Assembly (NCBI GenBank): GCA_013286235.1
Contig: JABDGE010000016.1
Span: forward strand, 1-53,833
Direction: 5' to 3'
Length of the DNA: 53,833 nt
From: Bacteroidota bacterium
GTDB lineage: Bacteria; Bacteroidota; Bacteroidia; Sphingobacteriales; Sphingobacteriaceae
Shown here piece after piece: positions 25,268-40,731 of the stretch. Under the pieces are notes generated by a model. That model worked only from the letters and a program-made list of their open reading frames with translations, made no database searches and had not been told where the DNA came from. How positions within the stretch are numbered: the stretch's first letter is position 1; each line of letters starts with the position of its first letter. The position numbers were made by a program, and so were the translations under genes.

Positions 25268-25298
25268 GATCTTATAAATTTTAATGTTTTAATTCCTG

Positions 25299-25369
25299 AG
25301 GTCGGGAGCGGATTCGAACCGCTGTAAAAGGTTTTGCAGACCTCTGCCTAGCCACTCGGCCACCCGACC
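25299..25369 (-). tRNA. tRNA-Cys (anticodon GCA)
   Basis: A 71-base cloverleaf on the minus strand: acceptor GGTCGGG with CCCGACC, U8, D-stem GCC with GGC, anticodon loop CTGCAAA, T-arm AGCGG-TTCGAAT-CCGCT and discriminator U73, the Cys identity base. All stems pair well. No CCA is encoded. Confidence 0.95.
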
Positions 25370-32993: not shown

Positions 32994-35642
32994 TTGAATT
33001 TTATTAAAACCTTCAGCACAATACCGGGTAGTGCCCCAATTAAAAAGGGCTTACGCTTTTTGTTTTTGATTCTATCTTTTAACGCTGCTCATTTTTGCGC
33101 CCATGCCCAGCAATTTGTACCAAAATGGGCTGCTGATTTAGGTGGGCCCAGCGCGTCGGGAGATGATGTTACCTGTGCTGTGGTTGATGTGGCAGTGGAC
33201 AACCAAAACAATGTTTATGTTACCGGTTCTTTTAACGGGACTGTCGATTTTGATCCCTCCCCCGGCGTCAAAAACCTAAGCACGGGTGGGGGTACTGCTA
33301 CATTTGTGGGTAAGTATAAAGCGGACGGAACGTTGATCTGGGTAGAATCCATTGGCGCTAATAATTCTGAAGACGCTACCTCCGTGGCACCCAATGGCAT
33401 GGCCGTCGATAAAGACGGCAATATTTCAATTACCGGAGCAAATAGCCCTTTCGATGCTGATCCGGGGCCGGGCGTAGATAGCCTGAAAGGGGGGGCATTT
33501 ATTATCCACTTGGATACCAATGGCAAGTTTCTTTGGGCTTATTCGATCGGTGATGCCAGCCTGAGAGGCGGTGAGCAGGTGGCTTCGGATAGCCAGGATA
33601 ATGTGATCGTCACCTCAAGTTTTAGCAAAGCAGTAACAATAGGAGACACCACCTATGCTGCGCCACCTCAGCCAAAGGAAGGTCAACCCATTTATCATGG
33701 CGTGGTCGTAAAATATGGCCCAACCGGCAATGTACTTTGGTCGATATGTATTGGCAATACCGACCTAAGAAGTGAAAGTGCTTTTGGCTGCAGGGTAGAC
33801 AGCCAGGATAATATCGTGATATCGGGCGCCTTCAATGAAACTGTTAATTTTAACCCGTTAGGAACCGCTTATAATGTAACTGCTACCAGCATAACCGAGG
33901 CTTATGTAGCAAAATATTCATCAATCGGGGGCCTAATGTGGGTGAATGGCTTAAATATGCCTGTTTTGGTATATTTTATGGATAATGAATCAAGGATCGG
34001 TCTCGACTCGCAAAACAACGCTTATTTTACCGCTTCATTCGCACAGCCCATCACTGTTGACGGCTCAGTTATATTAAATCCGAAGGGGACGCAGGATGTG
34101 GCTATCGTAAAATATTCACCGACCGGCGTTTTACAGTATGCCAAATCAATCGGTGGGCCGGGAGCGTACGCCGCAAATGGGAAAACGGTGGGAGATAAAA
34201 ACGGTAATATCTATCTGTCCGGAGCTTTTTCAACCGATAATACCTCTACCGTCACGGTGAATTTTAATCCAAACCCCGGACCTTCTGAAAACCTTTCAAC
34301 AGGTCCACAACAGGAGGAAATCTTCTATGTCGCCGAATATGACCCAAACGGAAATTACATCGATGCTTTTGACGGCGGACGTCCGAGTGGTTATAGGTCG
34401 GTCGCTTTTTGCCTTGCGATTGACGATAACAACAACTTAGATGTTGGCGGTGAGTTTAGCACGACTGTAAACTTCGACCCGAGCGGCTGTTCGCCTGACA
34501 GTTTAACTGCGAAAACTTCCTTCCCCCTCTGGGATGGTTTCATCGTCCAGTATTCGCCCGGGGTTATTTCAAATAATGTAATTACCGCGCCTTTGGTAAG
34601 CACTTTTTGCGCAAGCGGAATCCCTGCAGCAATAACGGGCAGCACACCTTCAGGCGGCACGGGTCCCTACACATACCAATGGCAAAGCTCAACCGATAGC
34701 GTAAATTTTACCAGCATCCAGGGAGCCGACTCGATAAATTATACACCAGTGTTGTTAAACGCAACCACTTATTACCGGCGAAATGTTTCGGTAAATTGTG
34801 CAACCCCATCAATCAGCAACATTGTGCCCTTAGTAGTGAGCAGTCCGCCTGGCCCGCCGCTGGCGGCCGGCGACACCATATGCACGGGATCAACAACAAC
34901 GCTTTCAATAACATCGCCGCAGGCAGGACTAAGCTACAACTGGTACGCCGGCACAACAGGCGATACTTCGTTGTTCACCGGTGTTAGTTTTACCACCCCG
35001 GCGTTAACCGCAAACACTACCTATTATGCAGCTGCGGCAAACGCTGCCGGGTGCGGCTCCACAACGCGCGCTGTGGTAAACGTAACCGTTTTACAGCCAC
35101 TGGCGGCGCCGGTTGTTACAGTTGGCGCCATTACCTCAACGAGTGTAAGCTTTCAATGGACTGCGGTTGCAGGGGCGACGGGCTACCAAGTAAGCATCGA
35201 TAGCGGTAAGACCTTTATCAGCCCAAGTTCAGGAGCCGATAGTTTAAGCACGACTATTTCAGGCTTACAGCCGGAAGCAAGCGTTAGCCTCATAGTGCAG
35301 GCTATTGGTGTTTTGCCCTGCCAGCTAAGCGCCAGTTCCGCTCCGGTTACTGGCGCCATCCCGCCAAGCGAGCTGATCTATGTCCCTAACGCCTTTACGC
35401 CCAATGGCGACGGGATAAATGACGTGGTGCATGTGCATAGTGAAAGTATAGCAAATCTTAAGTTTTATATATACGACCAATGGGGTGAACTGCTGTTTAC
35501 TTCGACCAGCATACAAAACGGCTGGGACGGAACCTACAAGGGTAAAAAGGAACCGGTTGGTGTCTATGTGTACTACCTGCAGGCTGTGATGAACGACGGT
35601 ACTGTCGTGAATAAAAAGGGAACGATCACCTTACTGAAGTGA
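32994..35642 (+). CDS. Secreted T9SS cargo: beta-propeller-like repeats, Ig-like and FN3 domains, gliding-motility CTD
   Basis: The 882-aa protein has a signal peptide (LRFLFLILSFNAAHFCAHAQ, about residues 20-39). About 500 residues of SBBP-type repeats follow, each with VDSQDNIVISGAFNETVNFN-like strands. Then come Ig-like segments (GGTGPYTYQWQSSTDSVNF near 555), a fibronectin-like domain (TSVSFQWTAVAGATGYQVS) and a type-B T9SS sorting domain: YVPNAFTPNGDGINDVVHV, FYIYDQWGELLF, NGWDGTYKGK, PVGVYVYYL. This end directs export by T9SS to the surface or medium. The frame's only suitable start is TTG at 32994. Ligand unknown; probably an adhesin or surface structure. Confidence 0.9.
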   Translation: MNFIKTFSTIPGSAPIKKGLRFLFLILSFNAAHFCAHAQQFVPKWAADLGGPSASGDDVTCAVVDVAVDNQNNVYVTGSFNGTVDFDPSPGVKNLSTGGGTATFVGKYKADGTLIWVESIGANNSEDATSVAPNGMAVDKDGNISITGANSPFDADPGPGVDSLKGGAFIIHLDTNGKFLWAYSIGDASLRGGEQVASDSQDNVIVTSSFSKAVTIGDTTYAAPPQPKEGQPIYHGVVVKYGPTGNVLWSICIGNTDLRSESAFGCRVDSQDNIVISGAFNETVNFNPLGTAYNVTATSITEAYVAKYSSIGGLMWVNGLNMPVLVYFMDNESRIGLDSQNNAYFTASFAQPITVDGSVILNPKGTQDVAIVKYSPTGVLQYAKSIGGPGAYAANGKTVGDKNGNIYLSGAFSTDNTSTVTVNFNPNPGPSENLSTGPQQEEIFYVAEYDPNGNYIDAFDGGRPSGYRSVAFCLAIDDNNNLDVGGEFSTTVNFDPSGCSPDSLTAKTSFPLWDGFIVQYSPGVISNNVITAPLVSTFCASGIPAAITGSTPSGGTGPYTYQWQSSTDSVNFTSIQGADSINYTPVLLNATTYYRRNVSVNCATPSISNIVPLVVSSPPGPPLAAGDTICTGSTTTLSITSPQAGLSYNWYAGTTGDTSLFTGVSFTTPALTANTTYYAAAANAAGCGSTTRAVVNVTVLQPLAAPVVTVGAITSTSVSFQWTAVAGATGYQVSIDSGKTFISPSSGADSLSTTISGLQPEASVSLIVQAIGVLPCQLSASSAPVTGAIPPSELIYVPNAFTPNGDGINDVVHVHSESIANLKFYIYDQWGELLFTSTSIQNGWDGTYKGKKEPVGVYVYYLQAVMNDGTVVNKKGTITLLK

Positions 35643-35791
35643 GTAGGAAAACAATCGCCCTCACGTGGCAACGCCCAAGTCAGCTCCTTATTCTCCTATT
35701 GTTATTACCGGCAAACGACGCTTTTTTAGTGTGAAATTGAGTGTTTTAGAAATAATTATATAAAATCTATAGGAATTATAGAATTTATATT

Positions 35792-35799
35792 TATGTTTG
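35792..35799 (+). promoter_or_regulatory. Candidate -7 promoter of the riboswitch RNA
   Basis: TATGTTTG matches TAnnTTTG exactly and ends 24 bases before the riboswitch P1 stem, placing transcription start just ahead of the aptamer. Confidence 0.5.
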
Positions 35800-35822
35800 T
35801 ATCGAAATCGTTCTTTATATTA

Positions 35823-35966
35823 CTTATCCAGAAAGACTGAGGGAAAGGCCCGGTGAAGTCTTGGCAACCTGTTGAGCAGCCATCAACATGCTTTAAGCTT
35901 TTTGCTTTCAGCTTTTTGCTCAGAAAAAGGTGCTAACTCCTGCTCCGTTATGCGGAGAAAGATAAG
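35823..35966 (+). ncRNA. SAM-I (S-box) riboswitch
   Basis: P1 is CTTATC (35823-35828) with GATAAG (35961-35966). Conserved core segments are in order: AGA, CTGAGGGAAAGGCCC, GGTGAAGTCTTGGCAACC, AGGTGCTAACTCCTGC, a CTCCG/CGGAG hairpin, and GAAAGATAAG. These are the S-adenosylmethionine-binding features of the S-box. The P3 region is enlarged by a near-duplicated AGCTTTTTGCTTTC stretch. No methionine or cysteine gene follows; the next element on the strand is a tRNA-Cys 48 bases away. No clear terminator/antiterminator platform is seen. Confidence 0.93.
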
Positions 35967-36014
35967 GTTGAACTCCTCTTGTTCCCTGGTAAGTGATTAA
36001 ATAGTTTTTTTAAA

Positions 36015-36085
36015 AGTCGCGTGACCGAGAGGATAGGTGGGAGTCTGCAAAACCCCCAACGGCAGTTCGAATCTGCCCGCGACGT
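36015..36085 (+). tRNA. Second tRNA-Cys (anticodon GCA), slightly irregular
   Basis: A 71-base cloverleaf: acceptor AGTCGCG with CGCGACG (six pairs, A1-G72 mismatch), U8, D-stem ACC with GGT, anticodon arm GGAGT-CTGCAAA-ACCCC (one A-C mismatch), variable CAAC, perfect T-arm GGCAG-TTCGAAT-CTGCC and U73. GCA and U73 are the key Cys identity elements, so it may be functional, but the two mismatches are unlike the copy at 25299. Confidence 0.8.
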
Positions 36086-36422
36086 CGAACGTTAAGTCAT
36101 TAGTCTAAAGTCGGGAAAACTTTTTCTTACTTAATTACAAACCAAGGCCGGCCTCAAATATATCCCACCACAATAAAATATTATTCAAGACTACTCGCAA
36201 TAGCATGGGCGGGAATCGCTTGCAGGGTGGTGGTTCTGACCAAATTTTGCATATTGATTTGCATGTGTAGCGATTGCTTCGTTCCTCGCAAGGACTCGTA
36301 ACTTATTTATTTTTAATATGTTAGTTGGACGCGCCGAGCCAAAAATAATTGTCCGGTTTGCGTCTTTGTGGGTAAACCTAAAGCTGCAGGCGACCGGGCG
36401 GATATGGAATGAGACAAAAATT
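36086..36422. other. Gene-free stretch with a repeat remnant
   Basis: No gene is seen. CTTTGTGGGTAAACCTAAAG (36364-36383) matches the right arm of the nested-palindrome element (TTTGTGGGTTAACCTAAAGC at 47273), so a decayed end of that element lies here. GCGATTGCTTCGTTCCTCGC (36269 onward) is a further short repeat-like word. Confidence 0.5.
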
Positions 36423-38927
36423 TTAATTTTTAAGGATATGGTCAGCAGCGAGAATCAGGAACAGGTAATCGCTGGTTCCGCCGCCTAAAACGTATTCGCC
36501 CTGCTGCCATAAATACGGCCATTTTAATAATTCAGGGAAATCCGGGCGGATAAGCGCTGTGCCTGAACTCACTCCTCCGGGTATATACGACCAATCAGCG
36601 CGGTTAAAACCATATCCGGGAATCATTGATTCAGCACCTACACCAGAAACGAAGGACGATGTATTTGATCCCGGATGACAACCCAATATAAAATTGATGG
36701 CGCTCAGCATATAATCTGTGGAAAATATCTGCGGAAAAGCCTCATGTAAAAAATACTGCTTATAGCCAAAATTCTGTATATCCCATCCGGCTCCCCAGAT
36801 GTTTGGTTTATAGGGTACGCCATAAGGCGTTTTACTGCCTTCGGTTTTTATTTGCTCAAAAAGCTTTTCGGCTGCGGCAGTAATGGTTTTGGTGTATTGC
36901 TGATCATTTACCAATGCCACGGAACGTGCGGCGAGCCAGCCCACATACCCCATCGCGCCGGCAATCTCCTGCTGGTGGCCGATGAGAAAGTCAGCATACT
37001 GGCGGTCTTTTGTGGTTTGCAATAGTTCAACCGCAAGGTTTAGCTTTTGCAGGGGCCTGGCCTTTTCGTTCCTGTTCCACACCTCCTTTGCAATAGCAAG
37101 GCATTGGGTTGCAAGGGTATCATTAAACCCTTTCATCACCCTGGCGGCTGCAGCCAATGATGCAGCCACTTCCAATTCCCTCGATGCATTTGCTTCTGTA
37201 AAAACCCAGCGGTCATCTGGCGCGCCGGGTGTACCTACAGCAGGCACAGGACTGCCGTCTGTGGGGGCCACGTAAAATTTGTTGTCGGTAATGTTTGTTG
37301 GGTCGCCTAATGTGGTGTACTGCCGTTTCGTGGGCTCGATAATGCCCCGGTAAAACCTTCCCATCGCCTGGTAGCCGCCCACAATGGATAATAATCCATG
37401 CTCAACCTGCTGCAAAATATCCGGTTTGCCATCCGGCTGCTGTATTTCTACCACATGGTTTACCTGGTCGACCGTAGTATTATCGTATTGTACGTCAAAC
37501 AACTCATAGGCTAAAGTTAAGCCCTGTACCGTCGTGGCCTGCGACTCAACGCGCAGATCAAAGTCGCCGGCATCGTGCCAGCCGCCACGGTTCAGGAAGG
37601 GCACTGTTTGGCCCGATTTATATTTATTCAGGGTTGAATGCCCTTGTATATAGCCGTCAAAATGGTTTGAGTCGGTAGGCGCCATTCTTGCATCATCCAT
37701 GTGGCACAGACCGTGCCATACCCTGTACTTGTCGTTCACCCGCATATGGCACATTTGCACGGGTAAAAAATATTCCAGCGTGGGCTGCCATACATCGCGA
37801 CTATACACGGAAGGGCTGATCTGGAAGGGATGGGTCTGAACATTCCCGTAACGCACCTCGTACATGCCGGGCGCCTTCACATTCGAAAAATCAAACTGAA
37901 GGTAATGGTAACGCAAAAAGTTACCCCAAACTTTGGCTTCGGTTTTTAAAACAGTTGTTAAACCGCCATTTTCGTGTATCCTCAGCAGTTCGGGCTGAAA
38001 TTTACGCTTATCATTTTTGTCCAGCTCGATCACAGCGATCTTTGACTGGCTGGGATGGTAACCCACCTGCGAAACCTGCACTACCGGAGGTGCGGTCCAA
38101 CCTTCAATGGCATGGGGCGTTACTAACCATACAATGGCATTTTTAGTTGCGCCTTTTGCAATAAGCGATCTTACCACAAACCACCCGTTATTATGTTTGC
38201 CCCGTCCGTCGAGCAACTCCAGGTTACCGGGCCCTTCATTTTCGATGATCATACGCTGGCTTTCCGATTCGGGCGCCACAGTGAGTTTTTTACCTGCGGC
38301 CATCGCGGTTGTTTGCAAATCGCCATCCTCGTCCTTATACATCTGGTCGTCGGGCTGCCTCGGGAATATACCAAACTGCTTATCCATGTAATACGATTTG
38401 CCAAACAATATCCCCGGGTATAGCTCAAAGTTAAAGCCTACCTTGCCAATCCAGCTGTCGGGCAATGGCGCATCCAGGTCGACAATTATCCGGAATCCTT
38501 TGCCGGCGGGTTCAACCCGTGTGGTATAGCCAAATTTGAGGTCTGGGTAGATCACCGGGTTAAAGCCCTTGCGGTCGATCGATGAATCGGGGAAATGCAT
38601 ATGTACGCTGATCTGCTGATTGTTAACGTCGACCATGCGTTTGCCCACCTTTGGTATAGGCTGCCATTGGCCGGGCGTAGGCTCAAGCCGAATATCGCCA
38701 TTGGTAGCCACCCGCTGACCGTTTTGGATCACACCTACGCCGCCCTGGTGCCCTTCGGGATAAAAATCATGGGCAAGCATTACGTTAACACCCTGGTATT
38801 GGAGGTACTCCAGGTCGTTAAGTTGCATCCCGGGCGCCTTATGCGTTGCCTGGGCATCTACATCAGAAACCCCGACAAATAAACACACGCTCAAACAAAC
38901 AAACGAAATGAATTTATTACTGCTCAT
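36423..38927 (-). CDS. Glycoside hydrolase family 9 (endo-beta-glucanase type)
   Basis: The 834-aa secreted enzyme has a signal peptide (ISFVCLSVCLFVGVSDVDAQ). An unassigned N-terminal part of about 270 residues follows, then the cellulase N-terminal Ig-like domain beginning VVQVSQVGYHPSQSKIAVIE (about 284). The GH9 (alpha/alpha)6 domain has the catalytic Asp pair in GGWHDAGDFDLR (about 447-458) and the acid Glu in WQQGEYVLGGGTSDYLFLIL near residue 811. It should cut beta-1,4- or mixed-linkage glucans in the periplasm or outside. The long N-terminal extension is unusual for GH9. It is divergent from the epimerase gene at 39121. Confidence 0.9.
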   Translation of the reverse strand: MSSNKFISFVCLSVCLFVGVSDVDAQATHKAPGMQLNDLEYLQYQGVNVMLAHDFYPEGHQGGVGVIQNGQRVATNGDIRLEPTPGQWQPIPKVGKRMVDVNNQQISVHMHFPDSSIDRKGFNPVIYPDLKFGYTTRVEPAGKGFRIIVDLDAPLPDSWIGKVGFNFELYPGILFGKSYYMDKQFGIFPRQPDDQMYKDEDGDLQTTAMAAGKKLTVAPESESQRMIIENEGPGNLELLDGRGKHNNGWFVVRSLIAKGATKNAIVWLVTPHAIEGWTAPPVVQVSQVGYHPSQSKIAVIELDKNDKRKFQPELLRIHENGGLTTVLKTEAKVWGNFLRYHYLQFDFSNVKAPGMYEVRYGNVQTHPFQISPSVYSRDVWQPTLEYFLPVQMCHMRVNDKYRVWHGLCHMDDARMAPTDSNHFDGYIQGHSTLNKYKSGQTVPFLNRGGWHDAGDFDLRVESQATTVQGLTLAYELFDVQYDNTTVDQVNHVVEIQQPDGKPDILQQVEHGLLSIVGGYQAMGRFYRGIIEPTKRQYTTLGDPTNITDNKFYVAPTDGSPVPAVGTPGAPDDRWVFTEANASRELEVAASLAAAARVMKGFNDTLATQCLAIAKEVWNRNEKARPLQKLNLAVELLQTTKDRQYADFLIGHQQEIAGAMGYVGWLAARSVALVNDQQYTKTITAAAEKLFEQIKTEGSKTPYGVPYKPNIWGAGWDIQNFGYKQYFLHEAFPQIFSTDYMLSAINFILGCHPGSNTSSFVSGVGAESMIPGYGFNRADWSYIPGGVSSGTALIRPDFPELLKWPYLWQQGEYVLGGGTSDYLFLILAADHILKN

Positions 38928-39120: not shown

Positions 39121-40731
39121 ATGAAAACATCAAATCTCACCTTTTTTCTTTTGCTGCTCTTAATTACTCCGGTAGCTGCCCAAAGAAGCACGCTGGAGCA
39201 AGCGGCCCGGCTGAAAATCTACCGCGAAATGAAAAAGTCGATGGTGGATGAATTATTAAAACCATGGTACCCGGCCTCGATCGATACTGTATATGATGGC
39301 TTCCTGAGCACATTTACTTATGATTTTAAACCCCGTGGGAGCCAGGATAAGATGGTGGTTACGCAGGCAAGGCATACCTGGAGCAATGCAAAAGCAGCCG
39401 AACTATATCCCTCGGTCGCCTGGTATAGAAAAGGAGAGGAATCCGGGTACCGGTTTTTGCGGGATAAAATGTGGGATAAACAATTCGGCGGATTTTATAC
39501 CTATACCGACAGGCAGGGGAACCCCAAATCGGGCGGCTTTGCGCCAAAGGAGGCCTACGGAAATTCGTTCGCTCTTTATGCGCTGGCGGCGTTTTACCAA
39601 AGTACCGGGGATACCAGCGCACTTAACCTTGCTGTAAAAGAGTTTCACTGGCTGGAGAAGCATAGCCACGACCCGGTTTACAAGGGCTATTACCAGCATA
39701 TGGAAAGGGATGGTACGCCCATAAAGCGAACGGCATCCACACCGTCCACGGCCGAATTGGGTTATAAAGACCAAAATACTTCTATCCATTTGCTGGAATC
39801 GTTTACGGAATTGTACAATGTTTGGCCCGATAGTTTGCTGCGGCTTCGACTGCACGAAATGCTGCACCTGGTGCGCGACGTTATCACAGATGAAAAAGGC
39901 GACCTCCGGCTGTTTTTTCAGCCCGACTGGACGCCGGTTTCCTACCGGGACTCGAGCTACGCGGTTGTTTTGAAGCACCGCAATATTGACTGCGTTTCAT
40001 TCGGGCATAATGTTGAAACGGCGTACTTAATGCTCGAGACTTCGCATGTGTTGGGCATTGAACATGATACACTGACCAACCGGGTCGCTAAAAAAATGAT
40101 CGACAATGCTTTAACCGACGGCTGGGATAATACTGTGGGCGGTTTTTATGACCAGGGCTATTATTTTAAAGATAAGCCCGGAATCACCATTATAGCCGAT
40201 ACAAAAAACTGGTGGGCGCAGGCCGAAGGTTTAAATACTTTACTGTTGATGGCTGATAAATATCCGCATGACCCGCTTCAATACGAAAAGAAATTTAAGC
40301 AGCAATGGCAGTACGTGCAAACCTACCTGATTGACCATGAACATGGTGATTGGTACCAGGGCGGCCTGGATAAACAACCCAATTATAGATTGGCGCTCAA
40401 AGGGCAGATATGGAAAGGTACTTATCATGTGTTGAGGGCGTTCATCAATTGCACCAACCGTTTAAAGCCTGATAAAATACCGCCGTCGGCGCCGGCCCGT
40501 GTCACCTATACAAAAGTCCCGCTGCCGGTTTTACGATGGACGCCGTCAACTGATAATACCGGGGTTTTGGGTTATAATATTTACTGCAAGGGGAGGCGGA
40601 TCGCATTTACGCCGCTTACTTACTGGAATGCAGACCGTGCTTTACCTGTTCACGGAAAAATAGCTGTTCGTGCGGTTGATTTGCAGGGGAATGAGTCGGA
40701 CCCTGGGGAAGCAGTAGGCAGTTTGCAGTAG
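39121..40731 (+). CDS. Secreted AGE-family epimerase (cellobiose 2-epimerase-like) with C-terminal FN3 domain
   Basis: The 536-aa protein starts with a signal peptide (FFLLLLLITPVAAQ). The (alpha/alpha)6 domain of the N-acylglucosamine/cellobiose 2-epimerase superfamily follows: TQARHTWSNAKAAELYP, FGHNVETAYLMLETSHVLG, TKNWWAQAEGLNTLLLM and GQIWKGTYHVLRAF, holding the conserved Arg and His residues. From about residue 445 a fibronectin-like domain follows (PPSAPARVTYTKVP, TPSTDNTGVLGYNIYCKG). Cellobiose epimerases are normally cytosolic, so the signal peptide and FN3 domain are notable. The last residues (EAVGSLQ) and the stop lie in a GCAGTAGGCAGTTT repeat. Substrate is inferred from the GH9 neighbour. 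Confidence 0.85.
   Translation: MKTSNLTFFLLLLLITPVAAQRSTLEQAARLKIYREMKKSMVDELLKPWYPASIDTVYDGFLSTFTYDFKPRGSQDKMVVTQARHTWSNAKAAELYPSVAWYRKGEESGYRFLRDKMWDKQFGGFYTYTDRQGNPKSGGFAPKEAYGNSFALYALAAFYQSTGDTSALNLAVKEFHWLEKHSHDPVYKGYYQHMERDGTPIKRTASTPSTAELGYKDQNTSIHLLESFTELYNVWPDSLLRLRLHEMLHLVRDVITDEKGDLRLFFQPDWTPVSYRDSSYAVVLKHRNIDCVSFGHNVETAYLMLETSHVLGIEHDTLTNRVAKKMIDNALTDGWDNTVGGFYDQGYYFKDKPGITIIADTKNWWAQAEGLNTLLLMADKYPHDPLQYEKKFKQQWQYVQTYLIDHEHGDWYQGGLDKQPNYRLALKGQIWKGTYHVLRAFINCTNRLKPDKIPPSAPARVTYTKVPLPVLRWTPSTDNTGVLGYNIYCKGRRIAFTPLTYWNADRALPVHGKIAVRAVDLQGNESDPGEAVGSLQ

Follow-up and report, generated by a model that had tools for sequence, protein, structure and literature searches.

SAM-I riboswitches (RF00162), T-box leaders (RF00230), and noncanonical cysteine tRNAs are already known, and the riboswitches that we know of control protein genes. 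SAM-I aptamers usually stand before a gene of methionine or cysteine metabolism. T-box leaders resemble the locus described here in linking a leader RNA to a tRNA, but they sense the tRNA as a ligand, whereas the tRNA would be the output of our unit. The regulation of LsfA, a Pseudomonas peroxiredoxin, reportedly differs from SAM-I control. The selC* type of tRNA-Cys is likewise a second tRNA-Cys with an unusual 1·72 end, found beside an ordinary one; as described in the available part of a review (PMC7609411), it has 8/4 arms, an A1:U72 pair, and a dedicated copy of CysRS, unlike the tRNA studied here (tRNA-Cys2), which has ordinary 7/5 arms, a GCA anticodon, and a purine mismatch at 1·72. 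In sulfur starvation, lsfA of Pseudomonas aeruginosa, which encodes a 1-Cys peroxiredoxin, rises more than 45-fold (PMC12581299, in part). At 15 loci related to ours, the protein encoded between SAM-I and tRNA-Cys2 is also a peroxiredoxin with a 1-cysPrx_C domain (one member tested), but the part of the LsfA account available to us mentions neither SAM-I nor a tRNA. Among the matches listed in the open-licence PMC literature, none concerned a riboswitch controlling a tRNA, or this locus, and PMC8632094 and PMC2258182, in the parts available, name no tRNA target for a riboswitch.

The window, a stretch of 53,833 nt from a Bacteroidota contig (JABDGE010000016.1), contains a SAM-I aptamer followed directly by tRNA-Cys2 (Table 1). 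We consider it likely, with some reserve, that the riboswitch controls this variant tRNA as one unit and that pairing between spacer and tRNA in the SAM-bound state blocks tRNA folding. In this scheme, the SAM-bound transcript would have its spacer base-paired to the tRNA's 5' half, so that the tRNA could not fold; at low SAM, folding and maturation of the tRNA would proceed. This mechanism is likely in outline; within it, we infer SAM binding (predicted), the switching step during transcription, the block of tRNA processing, and the SAM-off direction, the last presumably following the usual behavior of the SAM-I class. Such a unit would extend SAM-sensing riboswitches to a novel type of target and, if the scheme is right, a metabolite sensor would act on the translation machinery itself by way of tRNA folding. 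The hosts of the direct riboswitch-tRNA order include culturable soil bacteria, such as Mucilaginibacter lappiensis and M. gossypii, so that the question is open to test.

TABLE 1 Features of the riboswitch-tRNA locus and the ordinary tRNA-Cys of the window
Feature	Position	Strand	Basis or remark
Palindrome CTATAGGAATTATAG, upstream of the promoter box	35767-35781	+	Likely regulator site
Promoter box TATGTTTG, Bacteroidota-type -7	35792-35799	+	Read from sequence; sole such box found for the unit
Conserved leader motif GTTCTTT, 5' of the aptamer	35810-35816	+	
SAM-I aptamer, enlarged P3	35821-35968	+	RF00162 over full length; also top match in genome search
Spacer (predicted expression platform)	35969-36014	+	
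Predicted anti-tRNA strand, complementary to tRNA positions 1-30	35971-35999	+	Duplex of -26.2 kcal/mol, 24 pairs
Variant tRNA-Cys(GCA), "tRNA-Cys2": A1·G72 mismatch, U73, A·C mismatch in anticodon stem	36015-36085	+	ARAGORN, Rfam tRNA, relatives
Ordinary tRNA-Cys(GCA), G1-C72, outside the unit	25298-25369	-	ARAGORN; Rfam tRNA, 62.5 bits

A SAM-I aptamer adjoining a tRNA gene

The initial annotation had described a complete S-box aptamer at this place and suggested a covariance search, which bears the description out: RF00162 matches from model position 1 to 108 of 108 with 77.6 bits, against a cutoff of 44.4 (E = 1.3e-16). Its report of a tRNA-Cys on the same strand agrees with ARAGORN, which ends the gene at 36086, and with the Rfam tRNA model, which scores it at 43.2 bits when 801 bases are searched with lax filters; the variant tRNA was absent from the Rfam output of a whole-window scan with default filters. 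The tRNA has the GCA cloverleaf and U73 (T at 36085) of a tRNA-Cys, and its 1·72 pair is open. It does begin shortly 3' of the aptamer, as had been claimed, across a gene-free gap that measures 46 nt in place of the 48 bases given.

A promoter box of the unit's own, also part of that description, can be read 5' of the aptamer in the form TAnnTTTG, which we take to be the Bacteroidota -7 box. The further claim that no plus-strand gene follows for 3 kb stands: the next long plus-strand open reading frame (ORF) starts at 39121 (536 amino acids [aa]), and the ORF list has only short plus-strand ORFs (63 to 97 aa) between 36087 and 39120, all within an 834-aa minus-strand ORF. The locus thus keeps the aptamer of the SAM-I family and departs from its usual setting, in that the adjoining feature is a tRNA gene and not a protein gene, the platform is predicted to base-pair with that tRNA, and a simple consensus scan of the plus strand from 35640 to 36450 found no intrinsic terminator-like site. 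The idea that the conserved spacer motif holds a minimal ORF starting with GTG was rejected by eye, the frame not being kept among loci.

The genome bin to which the contig belongs (4.3 Mb, 65% complete) contains three SAM-I copies, including that of the window. The other two have the usual setting, one preceding metH (TIGR02082, 1771 bits) and the other metY (TIGR01326, 649 bits).

Conservation of the riboswitch-tRNA order

A BLAST comparison with 60 relatives found the riboswitch-tRNA order in other genomes of the genus. We scanned one genome per species, for 84,980 species, with a pattern for tRNA-Cys having A1 and a purine at position 72, which yielded 116 loci of this second tRNA-Cys type; the pattern is fixed in length and therefore misses longer variants such as that of L057. 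The loci come from Mucilaginibacter, Pedobacter, Hufsiella, Segetibacter, Ferruginibacter, Chitinophagaceae, Chitinophagales, Sphingobacteriales, Bacteroidetes, and one Flavobacteriaceae. When the same fixed-length pattern was applied over the class, it matched in 5 of 295 genomes, all of them Mucilaginibacter.

A covariance model built from 20 SAM-I copies of this group detected SAM-I upstream on the same strand at 54 of the 116 loci: 34 with the direct order (35 with the window, which is additional), 15 with a peroxiredoxin gene between, 3 with a cysteine-desulfurase-like gene between, and 2 with a gap of about 250 nt. At the other 62 loci, no SAM-I was found in the available upstream stretch, which may be too short in some; one of these, the peroxiredoxin locus L141, shares its contig with L019, which does have SAM-I. 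The 62 loci weigh against the proposed control. The direct order was found in Mucilaginibacter and one relative. Its gap is 46 to 58 nt at 30 loci, and at the four with a reported gap of 127 to 145 nt, the model match ends inside a long P3; the remainder of the aptamer follows, and the true spacer is 43 to 50 nt, for an overall range of 43 to 58 nt. Since three SAM-I copies were found in the 4.3-Mb bin and the direct order recurs at 34 of the 116 other loci, a chance adjacency of SAM-I and tRNA is unlikely. The comparison indicates that the riboswitch-tRNA unit is real and conserved.

The proteins encoded between SAM-I and tRNA are of two kinds. At 15 loci it is a 211-aa protein with AhpC-TSA and 1-cysPrx_C domains that exceeds the cutoff of the NCBIfam PRK13189 peroxiredoxin model (one member tested). 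At the other three it is a protein of 378 to 386 aa with Pfam Aminotran_5 (3 of 3), for which the best NCBIfam models are cysteine desulfurases, with scores below the cutoffs of those models. At all 18 loci, the tRNA starts 8 to 20 nt past the stop codon on the same strand, so that gene and tRNA look like one SAM-controlled unit behind SAM-I. These loci bear on the two readings offered by the initial annotation, namely, that the controlled gene had been lost or that SAM controls a Cys tRNA, a target class not seen before. The comparison favors the second, because the direct order occurs at 34 more loci, no spacer has a promoter box, and spacers co-vary as a group with their tRNAs. Relatives with a gene between riboswitch and tRNA, the finding named as telling against a tRNA target, do exist (18 of 54), but the met gene that had been specified was found at none of the 54 loci, where there is a peroxiredoxin gene, a desulfurase-like gene, or no gene instead.

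The 18 loci also suggest that the riboswitch may be left over from a lost peroxiredoxin or desulfurase gene, with the nearness of the tRNA having no present function. One locus, L177, on the same contig as L011, fits such a history: it carries the palindrome, has a promoter box 96 nt upstream of its tRNA, and shows what may be remnants of the leader (by eye). We consider this account improbable, as 35 direct loci keep a full aptamer and a 43- to 58-nt spacer with a similar AGTGATT/AGTTTT motif at its 3' end (Hufsiella excepted), and the spacers contain no promoter box. Loss of a gene may instead be the history of the direct form, of which the tRNA would be the present product.

Several loci differ from these arrangements. 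At L078 and L150, 250 to 263 nt separate SAM-I from tRNA-Cys2 and may hold a short ORF of about 55 aa (by eye). L023, the same place as L052, has a tandem pair of tRNA-Cys2 genes behind SAM-I and a peroxiredoxin gene. L064 (6318-7216) has SAM-I, a gene for a thioredoxin-like protein, and then a tRNA-Cys with the ordinary G1-C72 end, and in L213 SAM-I precedes the only A1-U72 tRNA-Cys that the genus scan found; because of these two, SAM-linked tRNA-Cys extends beyond the mismatch type. The direct units of L091, L130, L143, and L185 lie 370 to 392 nt past the end of a long ORF whose product, by eye, resembles a nonribosomal peptide synthetase.

One recognizable promoter box for riboswitch and tRNA

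A promoter of the tRNA's own had been named as evidence against SAM control, and no recognizable one appears in the spacer: the TAnnTTTG box occurs within 75 nt 5' of the aptamer at 35 of 35 direct loci and in 0 of 35 spacers. The same 75 nt contain GTTCTTT at all 35 loci and a match to CTATAGGAATTATAG with up to 3 mismatches at all 35, the latter being a raw count. By eye, the 18 loci with an intervening gene have GTTCTTT and a similar, partly more divergent palindrome 5' of SAM-I, and neither element was seen before metH and metY of the window's own genome. The palindrome has a single exact copy in that genome bin, and a wide regulon for it was not borne out: with up to 2 mismatches allowed, the pattern matched 10 times and its reversal 21 times.

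Among loci without SAM-I, the TAnnTTTG box lies within 130 nt before the tRNA at 35 of 62, compared with 8.5% in mononucleotide shuffles. Three of them (L095, L122, and L179) have a related palindrome and a box 34 to 35 nt upstream of the tRNA, a layout that would fit a riboswitch having entered between promoter and tRNA when both were already in place, or having dropped out from that position.

A second tRNA-Cys with an open 1·72 end

Within the genus, the ordinary tRNA-Cys (G1-C72) is present in 141 of 149 genomes (117 of 117 good ones) and the A1·R72 class in 89 of 149 (73 of 117 good ones). Over the 116 loci, the 1·72 end is A·G at 97 and A·A at 19, a purine mismatch that the search pattern itself demands. 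Evidence that the mismatch is kept comes instead from the search of 149 genus genomes for a paired alternative, in which a single genome had a tRNA-Cys of the same layout that lacks G1 and carries a pyrimidine at 72 (A1-U72); from this rarity we conclude that the mismatch is retained although one change would close it. If the riboswitch does control it, tRNA-Cys2 with this kept mismatch becomes a candidate for a starvation-specific tRNA. The other helices are 95.3% paired among 79 distinct tRNAs, against 88.8% (maximum, 90.1%) with shuffled partners. Mismatches in the inner anticodon stem are more frequent in direct-type tRNAs (11 of 21 distinct tRNAs) than in the other groups (4 of 17 and 2 of 42), which fits a tRNA that yields to the spacer and also fits decay.

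The kinship with selC* tRNAs does not extend to membership, since tRNA-Cys2 has 7/5 arms (ARAGORN and pair count) and a search of 41 genomes for a second CysRS that might be dedicated to the odd tRNA gave no second full-length match. Exactly one full-length CysRS was found in 39 of the 41, and none in the window's own bin and one other incomplete genome. One enzyme would thus have to charge both tRNA-Cys species. According to the available part of the review on selC* (PMC7609411), an ordinary CysRS would not recognize the A1:U72 pair of selC* tRNA-Cys, and by analogy the cysteine charging of tRNA-Cys2 is possibly poor.

The prospect of poor charging, the purine mismatch, and the anticodon-stem mismatches could also mean that the product does not work as an elongator tRNA but serves as a processing signal or as a regulatory RNA of tRNA-like form, e.g., an uncharged starvation signal. 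We regard this as rather unlikely, given how well the helices besides 1·72 are paired and given that tRNA-Cys2 has GCA and U73, both fixed by the pattern, which are major cysteine identity elements (PMC9976931, in part). The same source, in the part available, lists a 1-72 mismatch as a formylation element in initiator tRNA.

Complementarity between spacer and tRNA

When spacer and tRNA are folded together, the spacer and the tRNA's 5' half pair in those Mucilaginibacter loci that were inspected and do not in Hufsiella. Since the duplex program chooses the pairs, only permutation counts as a test of co-variation. Duplexes within the same clade average -24.06 kcal/mol, compared with -21.32 (standard deviation, 1.07) in permutations of 8 tRNA types, 98 of 40,320 of which were as low; two of the eight types differ by a single base, at position 36, so that the units are not independent, and the clades are related, so that neither these counts nor those from shuffles are strict probabilities. 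Over the 31 distinct pairs from the 35 direct loci, the mean duplex energy is -24.4 kcal/mol with a spacer's own tRNA and -22.3 kcal/mol with foreign tRNAs; in 11 of the 31, however, the own tRNA is equaled by over half of the foreign ones. L078 and L150 were excluded from all spacer tests. The clearest co-variation is in the L113/L137 group, where TTAAGGTCT in the tRNA (TTAAGG) is matched by AGATCTTA in the spacer, and there are two-sided changes in the predicted pairing at tRNA positions 24 to 28.

Compared with shuffled spacers, eight representatives of the direct loci have a mean z of -1.79. Of 300 dinucleotide shuffles, only 1 was as low as the window duplex, and the counts were 3 for L092, 6 for L113, 7 for L082, and 11 for L146. 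Against the anti-tRNA model, L102, L076, and L098 do not rise above their shuffles (56, 75, and 100 of 300 as low). Among control leaders, the mean z is -0.33 for the 18 with an intervening protein gene and -0.27 for those lacking SAM-I (61 of 62, one being too short), with single cases, e.g., L118 and L095, below -3. The duplex energies of the control leaders are nevertheless sizeable, at -20.6 and -16.7 kcal/mol, and the window's ordinary tRNA-Cys gives -20.8 kcal/mol, which again counts against the model. On this comparative support, the spacers as a group are more complementary to their own clade's tRNA than to that of another clade, with Hufsiella as the exception.

Proposed switching between the two states

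Equilibrium models with P1 closed and P1 open were computed for 31 of the 35 direct loci, the four with a long P3 being left out. Anti-tRNA pairing is dominant in both states in 29 of the 31, so the models switch little, which counts against the proposed mechanism. The exceptions are L098 and L102, the former having a more probable cloverleaf with SAM bound than without, opposite to the proposed direction. Opening of P1 eases cloverleaf formation in 21 of the 31 loci, has no effect in 2, and opposes it in 8, with a mean of 1.5 kcal/mol over all. In models of the stage before the tRNA is synthesized, the spacer pairs more with the SAM-free than with the SAM-bound aptamer in 21 of 22 loci, three of them by 0.02 or less. 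For nine representatives, 4 to 46 of 60 shuffled spacers paired as well with the SAM-free aptamer, mostly placing the real spacers no higher than shuffles. Sequestration of the spacer by the SAM-free aptamer thus gained nothing from the shuffle control and is kept as conjecture; since shuffled spacers often pair as well, it is the anti-tRNA strand that is supported, and its release without SAM that we infer.

The scarcity of switching in the models leaves room for SAM to control the tRNA through transcription termination, e.g., by Rho, within a spacer rich in C and poor in G, or through RNA decay, with spacer-tRNA pairing being secondary. The spacers of the direct loci are C-rich, and in Hufsiella (L102) the order is direct although a good anti-tRNA strand is lacking. 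We judge this explanation unlikely: pairing is matched to clade beyond what composition alone explains, and the consensus scan of the plus strand around the unit found no terminator-like site of the intrinsic kind. Under control of tRNA folding by the riboswitch, which we prefer, tRNA-Cys2 would likely be made mainly when SAM runs low. More specifically, and more tentatively, the anti-tRNA platform may decide during transcription whether a starvation-specific tRNA-Cys with a kept 1·72 mismatch folds, so that the SAM supply would set the Cys-tRNA makeup of the cell; we put this fuller statement somewhat short of an even chance.

Possible association with sulfur starvation

That tRNA-Cys2 belongs to a sulfur-starvation program is suggested by its class also standing last in SAM-I operons that encode a 1-Cys peroxiredoxin or a cysteine-desulfurase-like protein. 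From this gene company, SAM-I, a peroxiredoxin or desulfurase-like gene, and tRNA-Cys2 read as a sulfur-starvation unit, of which the direct loci would be the tRNA-only form.

Other genes also precede tRNA-Cys2. At L164, L167, and L184, it lies 9 nt past the gene for a 419-aa membrane protein, which in L164 exceeds the cutoff for Pfam Cons_hypoth698 and falls below that for NCBIfam YeiH, a putative sulfate exporter. At seven loci (L075, L087, L119, L128, L133, L155, and L176), it lies 55 to 166 nt past the gene for a protein of 206 to 221 aa (AhpC-TSA in L075, the one tested), with a hairpin between gene and tRNA (by eye). In Pedobacter (L114, L152, L159, and L178), it lies 103 to 143 nt past the gene for a 104-aa protein, which in L114 is an iron-sulfur assembly protein (PF01883).

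Candidate roles for the extra tRNA are a specialized Cys-tRNA, an uncharged-tRNA signal, and the tuning of attenuators with Cys codons. A T-box partner was also sought, and 0 of 38 genomes had a match over the cutoff; one weak match (33.4 bits) lies outside the genus. The attenuator role has a concrete candidate in the genus, because a Cys-run short ORF follows the metY SAM-I at all nine loci read. In the window's own genome (contig C1, L002:1501-1732), SAM-I before metY is followed by a 38-aa ORF (1616-1732) ending in CMCMCCCC, and the Cys-run ending recurs at 9 of 9 loci (including L214 to L221), with SAM-I upstream in each. The arrangement looks like a Cys-tRNA-sensing attenuator downstream of a SAM riboswitch. 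The DNA motif of the Cys-run ORF is present in 35 of 61 genus genomes at up to 1 mismatch, compared with 0 for the reversed control.
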